Positions 3,431 to 59,829 of a DNA stretch of 64,000 nt are shown here, in pieces (the stretch's first letter is position 1; each line of letters starts with the position of its first letter). The translations under genes and the position numbers were made by a program. This stretch comes from Bacteroidales bacterium (lineage in GTDB: Bacteria > Bacteroidota > Bacteroidia > Bacteroidales > F082): the NCBI GenBank assembly GCA_024710405.1, contig JANJUV010000017.1:62001-126000 (forward strand), read 5' to 3'. Below the pieces are notes generated by a model that was given only the letters and a program-made list of their open reading frames with translations, was not told the DNA's origin and did no database searches.

Positions 3431-5524
3431 ATGGCCAATAAAAACAAGGATAAGAATCCCAAAAAAACCGGCTCGCAGAGCGGTCTTCCGGAGCTTGTGC
3501 CCGGAACCAGATTATCTATCTTGCTTCTGGGATTAATTTCGGTTTTGTTCTATATCAACACTGTCCGAAACCATTATGCGCTCGATGATTATCTGGTGGT
3601 GGAAAACAACGAAACAGTAGCCAAAGGGTTAGCCGGGATTCCTGAAATCCTGACAAGTCTTTACACCGTTGAAAAAAGCAACTCATTCGGATACAGACCA
3701 ATTGCTCAGATAACTTTTGCCATTGAGCAACAATTCACTGCCGGACTGGACTGGAATGCCAACATCAGTCATTTCGTAAACGTGCTCCTTTACATGTTGG
3801 CGGTATGGCTGCTTTACCTGGTACTATTGAGGCTGCTCCGCGGATATAATCCCTGGTTTCCATTGTTGATCTCCCTTGTTTTTCTGGCACACCCTTTGCA
3901 CACCGAGGTGGTGGCAAGCCTCAAAAACCGTGAGATTCTGCTGGAGTTCATTTTCTCGCTGCTGGCACTCAGAAGTCTGGTCAACTGGGCAGATACGCAG
4001 AAAAAAACTGCCTTGTTTGCAGGTATGTTTTATTATGCCCTTGCACTTCTTTCGAAGGAAACCGCCATTGCACAAATCGCCGTTTTTCCGCTGGTGCTTT
4101 ATTTCTTTACCCCGGCCCGACCCAAACAAATGAAATGGGTGATTGCGGTTGGTGCTCTTATCATGATTCCAGTAATACTGGGCCCCCGAATGATGCTTCC
4201 GGAGATGGACCGCAATTTCAGACTGATGGAAAACCCCCTGTTTGTTGAAGAGAATTTCTTCGTGCGCATGGCCACAGCGGTGTACATCCTGGGATACTAT
4301 CTGAAACTGCTTTTGTTGCCCTTCCCGCTACGTTATTATTACGGCTTCAACATGATACCTCTGACCAACTGGGCCGACCCATTGGTGTGGCTTTCTCTGG
4401 TTATTCATCTGAGCTTGTTGTATCTGGCCATCAGGGCATTCCTGAAAAAGTCAGTGCTTTCGTTTTTTATCCTCTATTATTTCATCAACATCTCCATGTA
4501 TGCCAACATCGTTTCACCGGTTCCGGGCATTGTTGGTGAACGCTTTATGTTCTTTTCTTCGCTTTCCTTTGCTGCATTGACGGCTTACCTCATCCACCGC
4601 ATCAGCGGTATTCCCTTGACAGAAGGAAAAACAAAACTGCTGCCCGTTGTTGTCAGCTCAATGTTGCTGCTGGCCGTGCTGATTCCTTACGGATATCTAA
4701 CAGTTAACCGGAATGCTGAATGGCGGACACATTTTACTCTCTATCAGGCCGACATGCGCAAACTCAATCAATCCGTTAAAGCCAACGATCTGTTTGCCGG
4801 CGAACTGATGAAGCAGGTGAATACCGAGCTCGCCAAACCTGTGAATCCATATAAATTCATCGTTCCCCTGATTGAAAGGGCTACGAATCATTACAAACAG
4901 GCATTGCTTATCGATTCAACCCATTGGTCATCATACAACAATCTGGGAATCATCAGTCAAAGGATACACGGCGCTCAGTATATGCTTCGTTCACGAAGCC
5001 TCTTCAGCAACGGCGACACACTGAAAGCCCGCCAGGAGTATGAAGGAGGTGTTGCTGAGACCTACAAAGCCATTGAATATTTTAAAAGAGCATTACATTT
5101 CAAGCCCAACTACGATGCAGCTTTGTTTAACATCGGCATGTCATTCGACCAGTTGAATATGCCTGATTCATCTATTGTGTATTACCGCAGATCACTTGCG
5201 ATAAGCCCATCGGTAATAAACACGCGGTCGCGATTGGCGAATGCCCTGTTCCGGACAGGACAAATGGAAGAGGCTGTGCGCGAAAACATGAGCATCATCG
5301 AATCCGACCCGGCTTCGGACCTGCCCTACATCAACCTCGGAAACTACTATTACTCACTGGGTGAACGCGAAAAAGCAGTGAATTACTATCTTGAAGCATT
5401 CTCGCGAAATCCCAAAAAAGAGATCGCACAGGTTCTGAGCACTTATTATCACGAAACAGGTGATGCCGGGAAAGCAGCGTATTATAAGCAGGCAGCAGAA
5501 AATCCTGTTGAAACCCGAAAATGA
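3431..5524 (+). CDS. TMTC-like integral membrane protein with C-terminal TPR repeats
   Basis: Protein of 697 residues. The ATG at 3431 is preferred over an upstream in-frame codon inside the hydrolase gene. After a basic N-terminus (KNKDKNPKK) come about ten hydrophobic segments to residue 455, then TPR units (about 470-690) typified by HWSSYNNLGIIS, YDAALFNIGMSFDQL and DLPYINLGNYYYSLG. The luminal-type motif LDDYLVVENN near the first membrane segment and HPLHTEVVASLKNRE resemble those of TMTC protein O-mannosyltransferases, which suggests a GT-C fold with an Asp-Asp catalytic pair. Whether it glycosylates exported proteins is inference. Its stop overlaps the next start (ATGA). Confidence 0.78.
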   Translation: MANKNKDKNPKKTGSQSGLPELVPGTRLSILLLGLISVLFYINTVRNHYALDDYLVVENNETVAKGLAGIPEILTSLYTVEKSNSFGYRPIAQITFAIEQQFTAGLDWNANISHFVNVLLYMLAVWLLYLVLLRLLRGYNPWFPLLISLVFLAHPLHTEVVASLKNREILLEFIFSLLALRSLVNWADTQKKTALFAGMFYYALALLSKETAIAQIAVFPLVLYFFTPARPKQMKWVIAVGALIMIPVILGPRMMLPEMDRNFRLMENPLFVEENFFVRMATAVYILGYYLKLLLLPFPLRYYYGFNMIPLTNWADPLVWLSLVIHLSLLYLAIRAFLKKSVLSFFILYYFINISMYANIVSPVPGIVGERFMFFSSLSFAALTAYLIHRISGIPLTEGKTKLLPVVVSSMLLLAVLIPYGYLTVNRNAEWRTHFTLYQADMRKLNQSVKANDLFAGELMKQVNTELAKPVNPYKFIVPLIERATNHYKQALLIDSTHWSSYNNLGIISQRIHGAQYMLRSRSLFSNGDTLKARQEYEGGVAETYKAIEYFKRALHFKPNYDAALFNIGMSFDQLNMPDSSIVYYRRSLAISPSVINTRSRLANALFRTGQMEEAVRENMSIIESDPASDLPYINLGNYYYSLGEREKAVNYYLEAFSRNPKKEIAQVLSTYYHETGDAGKAAYYKQAAENPVETRK

Positions 5525-6543
5525 TACAGGAAAACGTGAATATCAAAGCACTGGCCACCTATCTTCCTGAGCGTGTGCTGAGCAACGAGGATCTTTCTGT
5601 GCTTTTTCCCGACCTTAAGGTGAAGGAACTGACACGGCTAACAGGTGTGTATCAGCGCCATATCTCAGCCCCCGATGAAACATCAGCCGACATGGCTTTC
5701 CGGGCAGCAGAAACCCTTTTTGGCCAGAATGAAGCACTTCGCGAAAGCATCGACTTTATTATACTATGTACGGCCGGAGGTGACTACAACACACCGGCTT
5801 CGGCTTGTATTCTCCAGCACCGATTGGGTTTAATCCATGATTGTGGTGCTTTTGACTTTAATCAGGGATGCACCGGATATCTTTACGGGCTCAGCTTAGC
5901 TAAGGGCCTTATTATGAACGGGTCGGCCACGAATGTGCTGCTGCTCACTGCCGAAACCATCACCAAAACCATTCATCCTGAAGATAAAAGCAACCGGGCC
6001 ATCTTCGGCGACGGTGCCACAGCAAGTATCATCAACCGTTCGGATGAACAACAGGCAGGCCTCGGTGAATTTGTGTTTGGTACTGATGGCAGCCGCTATG
6101 AAGAAATCATCATCCGCCACGGACGCGAACGATATCCCCTGCCCGAGTCGGCACAACCTGATTTTACCGATGCTTACGGTAACATCAGGAACCACGCCAG
6201 ATTTTATATGAACGGACAGGCAGTTTTTCAGTTTTCGGTGAGCAAAGCCCCCGAAATGGTGCGCCAACTCCTCGAAAAAAACAAGCTTGCTCCCGAACAG
6301 ATCGACCTCTATATCTTTCATCAGGCCAACCAGGTAATTCTGGAAACCATCGGAAAAAAACTGCGCATCACTTCCGATAAGAATCTGATATGCCTCGCCA
6401 ATACCGGAAATACTGTTGCTTCCACAATCCCCTTTGCGCTTGAGTCTGCCCGGAAACAAGGTCTTCTCAAAAAAGGAACAAGGGTGTTGCTCGGAGGCTT
6501 CGGCGTTGGATTCTCCTGGGGCGGAACGGTTTTGACGATATAA
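5521..6543 (+). CDS. 3-oxoacyl-ACP synthase III family protein (FabH-like)
   Basis: Ketoacyl synthase III-fold condensing enzyme of 340 residues, expected to join an acyl-CoA or acyl thioester to malonyl-ACP. The triad is complete: Cys117 in NQGCTGYLYG, His267 in FHQANQ and Asn297 in NTGNTVAS. Its first four bases overlap the preceding stop codon, so translation is probably coupled. Because it sits beside a hydrolase and a membrane glycosyltransferase-like gene rather than in a fab cluster, it may be a specialised KAS III and not the housekeeping FabH. Sequence alone does not decide this. Confidence 0.88.
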   Translation: MIQENVNIKALATYLPERVLSNEDLSVLFPDLKVKELTRLTGVYQRHISAPDETSADMAFRAAETLFGQNEALRESIDFIILCTAGGDYNTPASACILQHRLGLIHDCGAFDFNQGCTGYLYGLSLAKGLIMNGSATNVLLLTAETITKTIHPEDKSNRAIFGDGATASIINRSDEQQAGLGEFVFGTDGSRYEEIIIRHGRERYPLPESAQPDFTDAYGNIRNHARFYMNGQAVFQFSVSKAPEMVRQLLEKNKLAPEQIDLYIFHQANQVILETIGKKLRITSDKNLICLANTGNTVASTIPFALESARKQGLLKKGTRVLLGGFGVGFSWGGTVLTI

Positions 6544-6544
6544 T

Positions 6545-6586
6545 CTGGTTTCTTGTTTCTTGCTTCTTGTTTCTTGTTTCTGGGTT
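6545..6586 (+). repeat. 7-bp tandem array, six units
   Basis: Six head-to-tail heptamers of the type CTTGTTT/CTGGTTT fill the gap between two convergent genes (stops at 6543 and 6597). The period is exactly seven with no slips. It belongs to the same family as arrays near 24.1, 34.7, 49.4 and 59.5-59.8 kb. The array reads CTGGTT on the strand of the gene it follows. Confidence 0.85.
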
Positions 6587-21069: not shown

Positions 21070-21345
21070 ATGGAACACTACATCATAAGGGCAGTTTTCC
21101 AGGATTTTTTTGCTCATCTTAAAGCCCATATGAAACCCACCGACAGGGTAAAACTGTGTCTGGTGTTTAAAGATCATGACCAGATCCAGGACATTCATCT
21201 TTCTACTGCTGAAAGGGAAATACTTGACATAGTGCGGATGAAGTATGAACTGCATCCCGGCAAACACCCTTATCTGATCATGGAGGCAGAACCGGGGTTG
21301 TTTACTGTGTTGGGCAATAAGGCTTACGCCGAAACAAAATCCTGA
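21070..21345 (+). CDS. small protein of unknown function leading the adenylation-acyltransferase unit
   Basis: Soluble protein of 91 residues with no signal peptide or membrane segment and no family I recognise. It has a mixed helix-strand pattern (VFQDFFAHLKAHMK, TAEREILDIVRMKYELHPG). It lacks the NEEQYSLWP-type pattern of MbtH proteins, so it is not an ordinary NRPS chaperone. It ends 5 nt before the adenylation gene, so it is almost surely translated with it. Its codon use and spacing make a real gene likely. Confidence 0.7.
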   Translation: MEHYIIRAVFQDFFAHLKAHMKPTDRVKLCLVFKDHDQIQDIHLSTAEREILDIVRMKYELHPGKHPYLIMEAEPGLFTVLGNKAYAETKS

Positions 21346-21350
21346 CTGTT

Positions 21351-23168
21351 ATGGGCTTCCCAGCTGCTAATCAACTCCCGTTGTCATACAACGAACCACT
21401 ACCTACAATACATGGAAGATTCGAATCTGTGGTGTCGGCCGGCCCCGAAAGGATTGCGGTTACTGACGAAAGTCTGAGTTTTGACTACAAAACCTTGAAC
21501 CGTATATCAAATGCCCTTGCAAAAAACCTAACAGACATTTACGGTGCGGAGAACATTGCCATATTTCATGAGAATACCGTCTGGCAAGTTGTCAGTATTC
21601 TGGGCATCCTCAAAGCAGGCAAAACCTATGTGCCGCTTGACACCACCTTTCCGCCCGATCGAAACCGGGCCATCATGCAAGAAGCGGGTACAAGACTTAT
21701 CCTGACCGAAACCGGCCTGACCGCGAAACATCAACACTTCCTGAATGGGTTTGAGGTTGTTTGTTCAGATCAATTCATTGATAAACATGATGTTGATGCT
21801 CCAGAAGTTGCAGTTTGTCCAGGGGACCGTGCCATTTTGCTGTTTACTTCAGGTTCGACCGGCAAACCTAAAGGCGTTATTCAGACCCATGAAAACATGG
21901 TTCATTTCATCGGTCGCCTGACTTCGTTCTGTGACATCAAACCGGATTTTCGCTTTGCCCACTATCTTTCTACCGGCTTTTCGGCCCATGCCCTGCCCTT
22001 GCTCGCTGCACTGCTCAATGGAGGCCATCTGATGCTTTTCAACGTGAAAAAAGATGGAATAACCGCTTTTACAGACTGGTTCACAGCACAAGAAATTAAT
22101 GCCGCATTGGTACTGCCTTCATTTCTGCGACATTGGCTGGATGTCATTGAGAAAGGAACAACATTCCCCGATCTGAAACTCTTACTTTTCGGCGGTGAAA
22201 CCCTTTATCGTGGTGATGTGGAAAAAGCCCGGAAAGTATTTGCTCCGCACAACCGGATGATTAATATACTGGCAAGTACCGAAGCCTATCTTTCAAGGGC
22301 ATTCATCATCAATCATGATACTCCGCTTGTTGGAAACATAGTCCCTGTGGGCTATCCTGTCGAAGGCGTTGATCTGGTTCTCCGCGACGAAGAAGGCAAT
22401 GACTGTGCACCGGGCGAAACCGGCGAGATCTATCTGCGCAGCAAGTATGTGAGTCCGGGATATTGGAACAACCCTGTCCAAACCAATGCAGATGTGGTGA
22501 GGGATATATGGGACAACAACTTGAAAACCCTCAGGACTTACGACAAAGGAGTGATGCGGGCCGATGGATGTGTAGTGCATCTGGGCCGTAAAGACCACAT
22601 GGTGAAAATAAGGGGCTTCCGTATTGACCTTGCTGAAATTGAAAGTGTGCTCCTGACCGAACCAGAAGTGAAAGAAGCTGTTTGTGCCGTAAAACAGAAC
22701 TACCTAGGTGTAGAACACCTCATCGCCTGGATTGTGCCTTCCACCGGCCACATGCCCGATCTGAGTTTCCTCAAAGCAAAAGCCGCCAAAGTATTGCCCG
22801 ATTATATGGTTCCCTCACGAATCATGCAAATTTCAGAGCTGCCGAAAAACGCAAGCGGCAAAACCGACCGCACCCTGATACCCGAACCGGAATGGAATAC
22901 TGCGGATGTTGCCGGACAGAAAGAACTTCCGATAGATGATACTGAGAAAAAGCTGTTAATGCTATTCGAAAAAAGCCTGCAGATAAGTCCGGTCGGTGTT
23001 ACCGACAACTTTCTTGAACTTGGTGCCGATTCCCTGCGTCTTTTTGTGGCTTTCAACAGCATCGAAAAGGAGTTTGGCCGCAGAATTCCTGTTGATGTCC
23101 TGCTGCAGCATCCCACCATCAGGCAGATTGCGGGGTTAATCCTAAAACCAATGACTGATGAACATTGA
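21351..23168 (+). CDS. NRPS-like adenylation-carrier (A-T) didomain protein
   Basis: Protein of 605 residues. An adenylation domain (about 20-510) carries the ATP loop LFTSGSTGKPKG (164-175), the A5-like ASTEA (308-312), RTYD (395-398) in the position of the usual RTGD, GRKDHMVKIRGFRIDLAEIE (412-431) and the catalytic Lys504 in NASGKTDR. A carrier domain (about 530-600) has the phosphopantetheine Ser561 in LGADSLRLF. There is no condensation or thioesterase domain. It would activate an amino or other carboxylic acid as adenylate and hold it on its own carrier. The substrate cannot be read with confidence. It overlaps the acyltransferase gene by 11 nt, pointing to transfer of the carrier-bound group to a lipid-type product. 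Confidence 0.88.
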   Translation: MGFPAANQLPLSYNEPLPTIHGRFESVVSAGPERIAVTDESLSFDYKTLNRISNALAKNLTDIYGAENIAIFHENTVWQVVSILGILKAGKTYVPLDTTFPPDRNRAIMQEAGTRLILTETGLTAKHQHFLNGFEVVCSDQFIDKHDVDAPEVAVCPGDRAILLFTSGSTGKPKGVIQTHENMVHFIGRLTSFCDIKPDFRFAHYLSTGFSAHALPLLAALLNGGHLMLFNVKKDGITAFTDWFTAQEINAALVLPSFLRHWLDVIEKGTTFPDLKLLLFGGETLYRGDVEKARKVFAPHNRMINILASTEAYLSRAFIINHDTPLVGNIVPVGYPVEGVDLVLRDEEGNDCAPGETGEIYLRSKYVSPGYWNNPVQTNADVVRDIWDNNLKTLRTYDKGVMRADGCVVHLGRKDHMVKIRGFRIDLAEIESVLLTEPEVKEAVCAVKQNYLGVEHLIAWIVPSTGHMPDLSFLKAKAAKVLPDYMVPSRIMQISELPKNASGKTDRTLIPEPEWNTADVAGQKELPIDDTEKKLLMLFEKSLQISPVGVTDNFLELGADSLRLFVAFNSIEKEFGRRIPVDVLLQHPTIRQIAGLILKPMTDEH

Positions 23169-24081
23169 TATCCGCAACTTCTTGTTTACAAAGCTGATGA
23201 AGCTTTATAACTCGCCTGTTGGAGCTGCACGGATTCCCTATGTACCCGGTTCGGCACTGATCCGAAGAATTGCCGCCTCTAACTATGCCCGCAAGGAATA
23301 TCTGCTCCACAGAGCAGCACCGTTCAAAGAGTTCTTGGTACATATCGGGTATAAAGGTGACCATGAAGCTATGCTGACGGCTTTTCTGCAAACCCATTTT
23401 CACCATGGTTGGCGAACAGCGGCACTATCGCATCTCAGTAACCATGGGCTCAACAAAATGATCCGTTTCGATGGAAAGGAAATTTTTGATGAACACTACA
23501 GCAGTGGCAAAGGGATTGTGCTGGTGAACAGTCACTATGGGTGGCCTTCTGTTGCATTATGGCTTTTTACGCGCATGGACTATACCAACTATTACTCTAT
23601 CATTGGTGAAAAAGGTTCCGAAAGCCTCAAAGTTGCAGGCATCAGAAAAGACTGCCTGCCTCAGTTTCTCTCTGTAAGCAGGGAGTCGAACACAGAGGCT
23701 TTCCGGCTACTTTTTCAGGCAAGGGAAAAACTTGAGTCGGGCGGGATTGTGCATATTCTGGGCGACGGTCAGCACGGCCGGGCACATGTTTCACTACCTT
23801 TTGGCGGAAAAATAAGGGGTTTCAGGGCCAGTTTTGCCGAACTGGGACTAATCACCGAAGCTGCTCTGATACCTGTTTTTGTACTTCCAGGCGAAGGTCA
23901 TGGGGCTATTATTCAGTTTCACAAACCCCTCGATAAAGGTACAGACGAAATGGAACATCAGCAGCGCATAGCAAATATCATCGAACAGTACGCCCGATTG
24001 CTCGAAAGTAAATGGCTAAGCGCACCACATCTTGTCAACGGAGGTTTTGTGGAAGTGCATATCAGACAGGTAGGAGTGTAA
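23158..24081 (+). CDS. LpxL/HtrB-like acyltransferase
   Basis: Protein of 307 residues resembling the lysophospholipid/Kdo2-lipid IVA acyltransferase family. Diagnostic segments: GKGIVLVNSHYGWPSV (117-132), where His126 aligns with the catalytic His of the HX4(D/E) motif, and GDGQHGRAHVSLPFGG (202-217) with the family's second conserved block, followed by LIPVFVLP. The residue four after the histidine block is Ser131 rather than the usual acid, so the catalytic dyad is altered. No obvious N-terminal membrane anchor. Its start lies inside the adenylation gene, so the two are translationally coupled and probably act in one pathway. Confidence 0.78.
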   Translation: MNIDIRNFLFTKLMKLYNSPVGAARIPYVPGSALIRRIAASNYARKEYLLHRAAPFKEFLVHIGYKGDHEAMLTAFLQTHFHHGWRTAALSHLSNHGLNKMIRFDGKEIFDEHYSSGKGIVLVNSHYGWPSVALWLFTRMDYTNYYSIIGEKGSESLKVAGIRKDCLPQFLSVSRESNTEAFRLLFQAREKLESGGIVHILGDGQHGRAHVSLPFGGKIRGFRASFAELGLITEAALIPVFVLPGEGHGAIIQFHKPLDKGTDEMEHQQRIANIIEQYARLLESKWLSAPHLVNGGFVEVHIRQVGV

Positions 24082-24144
24082 CTGGGTTCTGGTTACTGGG
24101 TTCTGGTTACTGGTTGCTGGTTGCTGGTTACTGGTTGCTGGTTA
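24082..24144 (+). repeat. 7-bp tandem array, nine CTGGTT(A/G)-type units
   Basis: Nine heptamers in perfect register (CTGGGTT, CTGGTTA, CTGGTTG) begin at the base after the acyltransferase stop. This is the left half of a convergent-gene gap. Confidence 0.9.
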
Positions 24145-24158
24145 ACGGGCTCTCTGAA

Positions 24159-24207
24159 CCCGAAACCCGAAACCCGAGACCCGAGACCCGAGACCCGAGA
24201 CCCGAAA
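24159..24207 (-). repeat. 7-bp tandem array, seven CCCGA(A/G)A units with G4 potential
   Basis: Seven heptamers CCCGAAA/CCCGAGA in perfect register. On the minus strand this is seven GGG runs with four-base spacers, a regular G-quadruplex pattern. It starts two bases past the stop of the minus-strand DUF59 gene, so it would lie in that mRNA's 3' end. Confidence 0.85.
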
Positions 24208-24209
24208 CA

Positions 24210-34652: not shown

Positions 34653-34663
34653 GGGTTCTTTTT

Positions 34664-34705
34664 CTGGTTACTTGTTTCTGGTTTCTGGTTTCTGGTTTCC
34701 GGTTA
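34664..34705. repeat. 7-bp tandem array inside the suf operon
   Basis: Six heptamers (CTGGTTA, CTTGTTT, three CTGGTTT, CCGGTTA) fill the sufB-sufC gap. On the transcribed strand they read AAACCAG, the opposite sense to the arrays that follow the KAS III and acyltransferase genes. Confidence 0.85.
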
Positions 34706-42036: not shown

Positions 42037-42044
42037 TATTTTTG
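42037..42044 (+). promoter_or_regulatory. TAnnTTTG-type -7 element for cysteate synthase
   Basis: TATTTTTG lies 21 nt before the ATG at 42066, supporting that start over the codon at 42042. Confidence 0.5.
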
Positions 42045-42065
42045 CGGCTGATACACCGTCAAGGC

Positions 42066-43364
42066 ATGAACCATAACTTTCGACCCACCCGCTACAGGCT
42101 TCAGTCAGTGGCCACCGGCAAAGTGTTCGACGACACCGGCTGGCTGCTCGAAGCTACGGACGAAGATAAGCCCACACTCGTCAGGGCAGTTTACAATGAC
42201 CCCCGGCTTAACTTGTTTGATGACAGCTTTGGGTTGTACCGATACGCATCCTGGCTCCCCGTCAACCGAATGCTTCAAGGCTCTTCGGCTCCTGTGACCT
42301 ATAAAAGTGAAGGCCTGGCTGCTCATCTGGGACTAAAAAATCTGTACATCACCTTCAGCGGCTGGTGGCCCGAGATTGGCGCTGTCATGCCCACATGCTC
42401 GTTTAAGGAAACCGAAGCCTATGCTGTTTGTGGCCGTATGACACCGGAGATGTCGCAAAAGGTTTTGGTAGTAGCCTCGGCCGGGAACACAGCGCGTGCT
42501 TTTGCCAAAGTTTGCTCCGATAACCTTATTCCCCTTTTGCTGTGTGTTCCCGAAGACAACCTCGATGCCCTGTGGTTCGACAAGCCTTTGAACGACTGTG
42601 TGAAGCTGGTGTGCACGGCTTCGGGCAGCGACTATTTCGACGCCATCCACCTGTCGAACCTCATTTGTGGTTTTGAGGGATTCTATGCCGAAGGCGGCGC
42701 AAAAAATGTGGCCCGGCGCGATGGAATGGCCACCACCATGCTCTCAGCTACTACCTTCATCGGACGTATTCCCGACTACTATTTTCAGGCAGTGGGCAGC
42801 GGTACGGGGGCCATTGCCGCCTGGGAAGCCAACCTACGTTTTCTCAGCGACGGAAGGTATGGCAGCCACAAAATGAAACTTATGGTGTCGCAGAACGAGC
42901 CTTTTGTCCCGATATATGATGCCTGGAAGGCCGGCTCACGGGCCATGCTGCCCTATGACGATGACCAGGCCCGGCGCGATGTGGAACAGATCAATGCCAA
43001 GGTGCTCAGCAACCGCAAACCACCTTATCCCATCACCGGCGGGCTCTTTGATGCCCTTAGCGACACCAGTGGCGAGGTGCTCACCGTAAGCAATGAAGCT
43101 GCTGATGCAGCCGCTGAACTGTTTGAACGAACCGAAGGAAACGACCTGCATCCGGCTGCTTCTGTGGCCACCGCTTCTTTGGTGCAGGCAGTCGCCGACA
43201 AAAAGATTGAGCCCGAAGCTGTGGTGATGCTCAACATCACCGGTGGAGGCGAAGCACGATACAAAGCAACGCACAAACTACATTATCTGAAACCAAAGAT
43301 CGTTTTCGATATTGATGCAGCTTCTGAATTTATACAAAGTGCAGTTTCCCGGATGAAGTTTTGA
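42066..43364 (+). CDS. cysteate synthase (threonine synthase-like PLP enzyme)
   Basis: PLP enzyme of 432 residues that makes L-cysteate from O-phosphoserine and sulfite. The stretch SEGLAAHLGLKNLYITFSG, WPEIGAVMPTCSFKETEA (PLP Lys114) and WLPVNR match the cysteate synthase family known from Methanosarcina coenzyme M biosynthesis and not canonical threonine synthase. In Bacteroidota the same reaction feeds capnine-type sulfonolipids, which is the likely role here; the acyltransferase that would use cysteate is not in this window. It appears to be a single-gene unit with its own promoter. Confidence 0.85.
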   Translation: MNHNFRPTRYRLQSVATGKVFDDTGWLLEATDEDKPTLVRAVYNDPRLNLFDDSFGLYRYASWLPVNRMLQGSSAPVTYKSEGLAAHLGLKNLYITFSGWWPEIGAVMPTCSFKETEAYAVCGRMTPEMSQKVLVVASAGNTARAFAKVCSDNLIPLLLCVPEDNLDALWFDKPLNDCVKLVCTASGSDYFDAIHLSNLICGFEGFYAEGGAKNVARRDGMATTMLSATTFIGRIPDYYFQAVGSGTGAIAAWEANLRFLSDGRYGSHKMKLMVSQNEPFVPIYDAWKAGSRAMLPYDDDQARRDVEQINAKVLSNRKPPYPITGGLFDALSDTSGEVLTVSNEAADAAAELFERTEGNDLHPAASVATASLVQAVADKKIEPEAVVMLNITGGGEARYKATHKLHYLKPKIVFDIDAASEFIQSAVSRMKF

Positions 43365-49391: not shown

Positions 49392-49447
49392 CCCGGAACC
49401 AGAAACAAGAAACAAGAAACCAGAAACAAGAAACAAGGAACCAGAAT
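49392..49447. repeat. 7-bp tandem array, eight units
   Basis: Eight heptamers in register: CCCGGAA, CCAGAAA, CAAGAAA (repeated), CAAGGAA, CCAGAAT. Unlike the others it lies between divergent genes. Confidence 0.85.
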
Positions 49448-59465: not shown

Positions 59466-59527
59466 AAACCCCCTTTCGAGGGAACAAATAAACCTCCATG
59501 CACTCACCGTGTTGCGGGGGTTTTTTG
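59466..59527 (+). terminator. terminator after maeB
   Basis: AAACCCCC (59466-59473) pairs with GGGGGTTT (59516-59523), closing a 42-nt loop that itself contains a CCCT-TTCG-AGGG tetraloop hairpin; TTTTTTG follows. The long loop is unusual but the G/C stem plus T-run is terminator-like. Confidence 0.6.
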
Positions 59528-59530
59528 TTG

Positions 59531-59600
59531 CTGGTTCCGGGTTGCGGGTTGCGGGTTGCGAGTTTCGGGTTGCGAGTATCGGGTTGCGGGTTGCGGGTTG
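59531..59600 (+). repeat. 7-bp tandem array, left arm of ten units
   Basis: Ten heptamers in perfect register, mainly CGGGTTG with CGAGTTT and CGAGTAT variants. It follows the maeB terminator and is the inverted counterpart of the ten-unit array at 59755-59824. Three consecutive GGG runs occur twice, so G-rich structures are possible. Confidence 0.9.
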
Positions 59601-59754
59601 GACATAATTTACAGTTCAGTTTCACCATTTTGCCTGGAGTCGTTGTTGGGAAGCTGCCACCTGATGATTCAGTTAAAGCTGATTTCTAGCGGCTCTTTTC
59701 AGCGCTAGGGGTAAAAGGCTAAAAACCTGCTGTTAATTCAGTTTGAGCTCGTAA

Positions 59755-59824
59755 CCCGCAACCCGGAACAAGAAACAAGAATCCAGGAACAAGAAACCAG
59801 TAACCAGAAACCAGTAACCAGAAA
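59755..59824 (-). repeat. 7-bp tandem array, right arm of ten units
   Basis: Ten heptamers (CCCGCAA, CCCGGAA, CAAGAAA, CCAGTAA, CCAGAAA) in perfect register, reading CTGG/CGGG-type on the minus strand and ending 5 nt before the convergent T9SS gene's stop. The 154 bp between the two arms hold no gene. Confidence 0.9.
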
Positions 59825-59829
59825 CCCTC

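Follow-up and report, generated by a model that had tools for sequence, protein, structure and literature searches.

An adenylation-carrier (A-T) protein and an LpxL-like acyltransferase constitute a genuine conserved pair in Bacteroidales, which is more than a chance arrangement because the A-T gene is located directly upstream of the acyltransferase gene, and on the same strand, at all 17 loci (12 genomes, two Bacteroidales families) retrieved by a survey whose query was the acyltransferase alone and in which A-T adjacency played no part. Both partners are known kinds of enzymes; searches of open-licence literature gave no description of an A-T/LPLAT pair. As our best, albeit tentative, explanation we propose that the pair is a two-protein module, in which a self-loaded acyl group without an amino function would be passed on to an envelope glycoconjugate, where a hydroxyl of either a sugar or a lipid would receive it.

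The pair was encountered in a stretch of 64,000 nucleotides from a Bacteroidales bacterium (contig JANJUV010000017.1; referred to as the window), where it is part of a three-gene operon. The operon encodes a 91-residue protein (21070..21345, +), the A-T didomain protein composed of adenylation domain and carrier (21351..23168, +; 605 aa) and the acyltransferase with an LpxL/LpxM/PatA fold (23158..24081, +; 307 aa). Inspection of the open reading frames reproduced the gene positions reported in the initial annotation, as well as the 5-nt gap between the first two genes and the 11-nt overlap (23158..23168, +) of the A-T stop region with the acyltransferase start. The operon is solitary, with a divergent dxs gene on one side and convergent genes, which by eye are PaaD/DUF59- and SufE-like, on the other.

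Conservation of the A-T/acyltransferase pair

Wherever both gene ends are visible, the A-T and acyltransferase genes overlap or sit a few nucleotides apart. The acyltransferase family is rare, a statement that refers to the sampled Bacteroidota: it was detected in 4 of 173 genomes of the window's family (three weak matches with E about 1e-4 were left out of the count) and in 4/393 sampled genomes of the window's order (leaving out weak matches above E 1e-16), the window's genome being counted in both samples. Among 395 genomes sampled from the phylum (E<=1e-10), the window's genome was the only one with a member, and in a second family the acyltransferase is present in eight of nine genomes. 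Scanning of contigs with patterns built from only two sequences returned one locus, whose contig is, by its length, the one that carries a G753 locus. The plasmid search gave no match for the acyltransferase, and the best plasmid match of the A-T protein, from Nostoc, was set aside, as its A4 motif is not the same and its neighbourhood showed no LpxL-like gene.

The two proteins also show signs of co-evolution. Mirror-tree analysis of 16 pairs revealed a correlation of A-T and acyltransferase distances (r=0.842; Mantel p=0.0001) that is partly due to shared descent, and both trees split cleanly into two types, designated I and II (support 100/100 for the A-T proteins and 100/99 for the acyltransferases). 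In these trees, the type I side comprises the window and the genomes G753, G907 and G763. A fifth type I copy, whose locus is cut by a contig end in genome G954, was typed by identity, its acyltransferase being 65% identical to the type I enzyme of G907 and 41% to type II. Thus, the adjacency at 17 of 17 loci and the congruent trees bear out the earlier notion that carrier and lipid-type acyltransferase form a unit. Co-occurrence of all three genes in further genomes, whose absence had been named as a refutation, was observed in G753 (same genus) and in G907 (another family).

Substrate of the adenylation domain

Pfam analysis of the 605-aa protein revealed AMP-binding (7.9e-57), AMP-binding_C (7.7e-11) and PP-binding (8.8e-13) and no other domain; the protein is thus an A-T didomain without condensation, thioesterase or reductase domain, as annotated initially. 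In domain architecture and core catalytic motifs it equals the A-T units of the NRPS enzymes GrsA and LgrA, from which it differs by the absence of a condensation or release domain and by its tie to an acyltransferase. The catalytic residues are kept, i.e. TSGSTGKPKG (A3), the A5 Glu, the A7 Asp, A8, the A10 Lys and the carrier Ser. The claim of full catalytic motifs therefore holds as far as catalysis is concerned, but not for the amino-acid pocket, as A4 reads FSAHALP instead of FDxSxxE and A5 reads ILASTE instead of YGPTE. The Asp at position D235 of GrsA is the residue that holds the amino group of the substrate. Its equivalent, located by motif and by a profile alignment to LgrA, is a Ser in 11/11 tabulated A domains, where it resides inside an invariant F-S-A-H, and the A5 GPTE is changed to A-S-[ST]-E in all eleven. 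Motif-based mapping of the window pocket, from sequence alignment rather than from a structure, yielded S-A-L-V-L-F-I-L-S plus the A10 Lys; beside the Ser at the D235 position, this pocket is hydrophobic, and none of its residues is acidic. With 288.2 bits, the domain scores below the cutoff (317.4) of the NCBIfam model AA-adenyl-dom, and neither the A-T protein nor the acyltransferase falls in a named NCBIfam equivalog. In other Bacteroidota, those top-scoring A-domain matches that were read are without FSAH and mostly have an FD-type A4.

Because the amino-anchoring Asp is replaced by Ser and the mapped pocket lacks an acidic residue, a non-amino carboxylic acid is the more likely substrate, and activation of an amino acid appears unlikely. 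These features speak against the aminoacyl or acyl-amino lipid favoured in the initial annotation. In line with them, A domains for alpha-keto (StsA), alpha-hydroxy and aryl acids have another residue in place of D235, and in the alpha-keto domain StsA the A5 Pro is replaced as well (PMC11253843). Yet, the A domain overall resembles the amino acid-activating LgrA, GrsA and DltA, and McyG, which has a Val at the D235 position, is described as a Phe-activating domain (PMC11253843). One could thus envisage an aminoacyl lipid, with the acyltransferase placing on a lipid an amino acid that the A domain has activated; with both the Ser and the altered GPTE found in all eleven tabulated domains and no acidic residue in the mapped pocket, we consider this rather unlikely. 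As to loading of the carrier, the genome has a single detectable phosphopantetheinyl transferase, which could modify the A-T carrier and, for want of another, would need to serve it too.

The hydrophobic pocket without Asp would also suit an aromatic acid, in which case the pair would yield an aryl ester lipid, much as in the loading and the attachment steps of aryl polyene clusters. Aryl polyene clusters indeed offer a parallel enzyme set, as they encode a 4-hydroxybenzoyl-ACP synthetase together with ACPs and lysophospholipid-type acyltransferases (PMC8253772), and aryl polyene, xanthomonadin and flexirubin systems have in common with the pair the combination of adenylating enzyme, carrier and LPLAT for an envelope lipid. 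However, they differ in that no polyketide chain-extension enzymes are found beside the pair: no linked ketosynthase, dehydratase or ACP genes were seen next to the window operon (by eye) or at the other pair loci, and a FabH-like ORF (5521-6543) lies 15 kb away from the window operon. Moreover, the A domain is of the NRPS type and aryl specificity cannot be read from its code, making an aryl-acid lipid improbable.

Type I and type II loci

The best clue to function is a second copy of the pair in the window's genome (G000). Here, a second A-T protein (P0005; 39% identical) is encoded next to an acyltransferase paralogue (41% identical) within an operon (G000:C5 about 269473-277360; L008 14470-19366, -, and L009 1-2860, -) that has the order Wzm-like permease, Wzt-like ATPase, sulfotransferases, sulfotransferase-GT4 fusion, A-T protein and acyltransferase, the gene families having been checked on orthologous loci. 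This copy is of type II, which comprises 12 loci, one in each of 12 Bacteroidales genomes. The sulfotransferase-GT4 fusion gene is located directly upstream of the pair at all 12 (two of them cut by a contig start), and Wzm-Wzt heads the operon at all eight loci free of contig-end cuts, where more sulfotransferases are present. The type II operon is a candidate locus for a sulfated envelope glycan, and the envelope setting assumed at the outset is supported in so far as the paralogues of carrier and acyltransferase sit in an envelope-glycan context. On its other side, the type II operon is often flanked by a TonB receptor. In several genomes, it is adjoined by two genes that are conserved as a pair, one for a Peripla_BP_6-type lipoprotein and one for a TonB-dependent receptor (L008 10574-14458, +; L025 8925-12809, -; L037 5812-9669, +; L038 3-3698, +; L084 4994-8925, -; L109 596-4458, +), and that are possibly linked to the glycan.

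Type I comprises five loci including the window, and no glycan genes adjoin them, a circumstance which at the window locus counts against the best explanation. A neighbouring dxs gene is shared by G753 and the window locus, whereas the remaining type I copies have other surroundings. The gene for the 91-residue protein is present at three of the four type I loci with visible upstream DNA and was not found at type II loci, including those added later. Its homologues lie directly upstream of the A-T gene in G753 (58% identity) and G907 (34-38%; E 4e-17 and 6e-20), at L036 7403-7675 and L082 4891-5160. Because homologues occupy the same operon position in these two other genomes, the 91-residue ORF is, as judged from sequence conservation, a real gene. 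No such gene is present in the 465-nt gap upstream of the A-T gene in G763, and in G954 the contig ends before any corresponding position. The protein matches no Pfam family at E<=1, consistent with its first description as a small unknown protein. The AlphaFold2 model displays a confident beta-alpha fold (pLDDT 89.4), predicted to be ferredoxin-like alpha/beta, and its structural hits, with a best Foldseek E of 0.16, do not rise above noise. The best Z score, 5.5, was obtained with NusG/Spt5 NGN domains, and MecA/YpbH and ACT domains are similar. We do not claim an NGN domain of the NusG/UpxY type, as a Z of 5.5 is accompanied by neither a Pfam nor a sequence match and other ferredoxin-like folds score alike. 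An MbtH-like protein was discarded (no PF03621 match).

The type I proteins exhibit some drift. Their A7 motifs read RTYDKG and NTHDRG as compared to RSGDLG, and A-T identity between G000 and G753 is 55% for type I and 62% for type II, indicating slightly lower conservation. The window operon might accordingly be viewed as a decaying duplicate without function. Nonetheless, the frames are intact, the catalytic residues are kept, and type I is retained in five genomes from two families, three of which also have the third gene, rendering decay very improbable.

Proposed acyl transfer and relation to known systems

The 307-aa protein matches Lip_A_acyltrans (PF03279; 1.5e-6, 28.1 bits versus a cutoff of 22.3), and its model (pLDDT 83; residues 203-221 low) adopts the fold of LpxM (Z 19.6 over 256 residues) and PatA (Z 19.4 over 234), in keeping with its assignment as an acyltransferase of the lipid A type. 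It is no LpxL equivalog: the NCBIfam models for lipid A lauroyl transferase reach at best 18.0 bits versus 363 and 13.4 versus 248, missing the cutoffs. With LpxL, LpxM and PatA it has in common the fold (Z about 19), the catalytic His, the block-3 acid and PF03279, whereas identity in structural alignments amounts to 13-15%, the HX4 acid is replaced in type I and the donor is probably the partner carrier. In PatA, the catalytic pair consists of H126 and E200 and not of the HX4 acid (PMC4792965). In the alignment, these residues correspond to H126 and D203 of the window acyltransferase, and the His and the Asp are invariant at 17/17 loci. H126 is followed by S131, i.e. HX4S, and thus the canonical HX4D/E acid is missing. 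This position carries S/S/G/A/A in type I, where the acid is lost in five of five, as compared to E in 11/12 and Q in 1/12 type II enzymes. Loss of the HX4 acid thereby marks a difference between the two lineages.

We initially suspected that HX4S renders the acyltransferase dead. This suspicion was weakened by the PatA literature, by the invariant D203 and by the LPLAT VexE, in which a Tyr replaces the HX4 acid and which is nevertheless active via the His and a PatA-E200-type acid (PMC9597891). By analogy, the window acyltransferase is probably active, too. Type I chemistry may still differ from that of type II, because the HX4 acid is lost in every type I enzyme. The type I acyltransferase could even have become a docking partner, whose transfer activity is lost or changed, with the loaded group going to another acceptor, perhaps with involvement of the 91-residue protein. 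The pattern at the HX4 position and the restriction of the 91-residue gene to type I would fit such a role, but type I, too, has kept the His and the PatA-E200-type Asp without exception and VexE manages without the HX4 acid, so that we regard this as quite unlikely. As far as the sequences tell, the loaded group may also take a route that bypasses the acyltransferase.

In the acyl-transfer mechanism that we favour, the A-T protein would spend ATP on activation of a hydrophobic carboxylic acid without alpha-amino group, with hydroxy, keto, aryl and short branched acids as candidate classes, and would load it onto its own phosphopantetheine. The LpxL/PatA-fold partner would then take the acyl group off this carrier, using His126 and Asp203, and attach it, on the cytoplasmic side of the membrane, to a hydroxyl group of either a sugar or a lipid. 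For type II, the acceptor would most likely be the glycolipid end or a sugar of the sulfated glycan, which the linked sulfotransferases and the GT4 enzyme would build and Wzm-Wzt would export. For type I, the same chemistry on another envelope acceptor is probable. What the data establish are the gene architecture, the pairing and co-evolution of the two proteins, their folds, the conserved catalytic residues and the missing amino-anchoring Asp; the acid, the acceptor, the directness of transfer and the export of the product are inferred. A more specific reading, namely an undescribed module in which an NRPS-type self-loading carrier supplies a non-amino, non-standard acyl group to an LpxL-fold acyltransferase, and which exists in two paralogous versions, with type II acylating an ABC-exported sulfated glycan and type I, along with the ferredoxin-fold 91-residue protein, serving a second envelope lipid, appears less likely than not as a whole. 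Acyltransferases of the LPLAT kind that act on the envelope normally use fatty acyl-ACP or acyl-CoA. Conserved pairing with a dedicated self-loading carrier would leave the selection of the acyl group on an envelope glycolipid to an NRPS-type enzyme. The pairing further points to a glycan of uncultured Bacteroidales that is sulfated, exported by an ABC system and so far undescribed, and the pair is small and amenable to in vitro testing.

Among known systems, the module would work most like VexE supplied by its own NRPS-type loader. From acyl-ACP, VexE generates an acylated sugar destined for the glycolipid terminus of a capsule that leaves the cell through an ABC exporter (PMC9597891). In type II, as in the Vi antigen loci of Salmonella Typhi and Achromobacter, the genes for LPLAT, ABC glycan exporter and GT4 enzyme occur together (PMC9597891), and VexE and the window acyltransferase agree in their His and PatA-E200-type acid, the HX4 acid being dispensable in VexE. 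However, VexE receives a beta-hydroxyacyl-ACP from fatty acid synthesis instead of relying on a dedicated NRPS-type A-T protein, and it possesses TPR domains and no A domain, whereas the window acyltransferase consists of the LPLAT domain only. In addition, type II has linked sulfotransferases, in contrast to the Vi locus, and the type I locus of the window is without a linked ABC exporter. The Dlt system (DltABCD) is comparable in that a DltA-like A domain loads an acid onto a carrier for an envelope polymer; it differs from the window, which has no DltB or DltD, an LPLAT instead of an MBOAT, and an A domain without the Asp for the amino group of D-Ala. In G763 (L085, G763:C93), the type I pair adjoins MBOAT and DltD genes. 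A Dlt-like operon was nonetheless rejected and this neighbourhood attributed to chance, as the MBOAT-DltD-RND order recurs in G846 (L092, G846:C330), where the pair is missing, and a search of the window's genome detected no DltD-like protein. Taken together, the module lacks defining features of the Vi, Dlt and aryl polyene systems and of the LpxL equivalogs.

Comparison of G846:C330 with G763:C93 also exposes a place where the type I pair has naturally been inserted or lost. Near its MBOAT-DltD-RND genes, G846 carries a look-alike cysteate synthase ORF (L092 1933-3228). The window itself encodes a cysteate synthase (42042-43364, +; TIGR03844, 470 bits versus a cutoff of 325), suggesting production of sulfonolipids or of some other cysteate product by the organism. 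Just 3' of the window operon (24081-24208), an ACTGGTT run is followed by an AACCCGA run in roughly inverted arrangement; this array could be a terminator or a recombination site. Other intergenic arrays of 7-nt (or 3x7) repeats are located at 6544-6581, 34661-34704, 49397-49446, 59527-59600 and 59753-59826.
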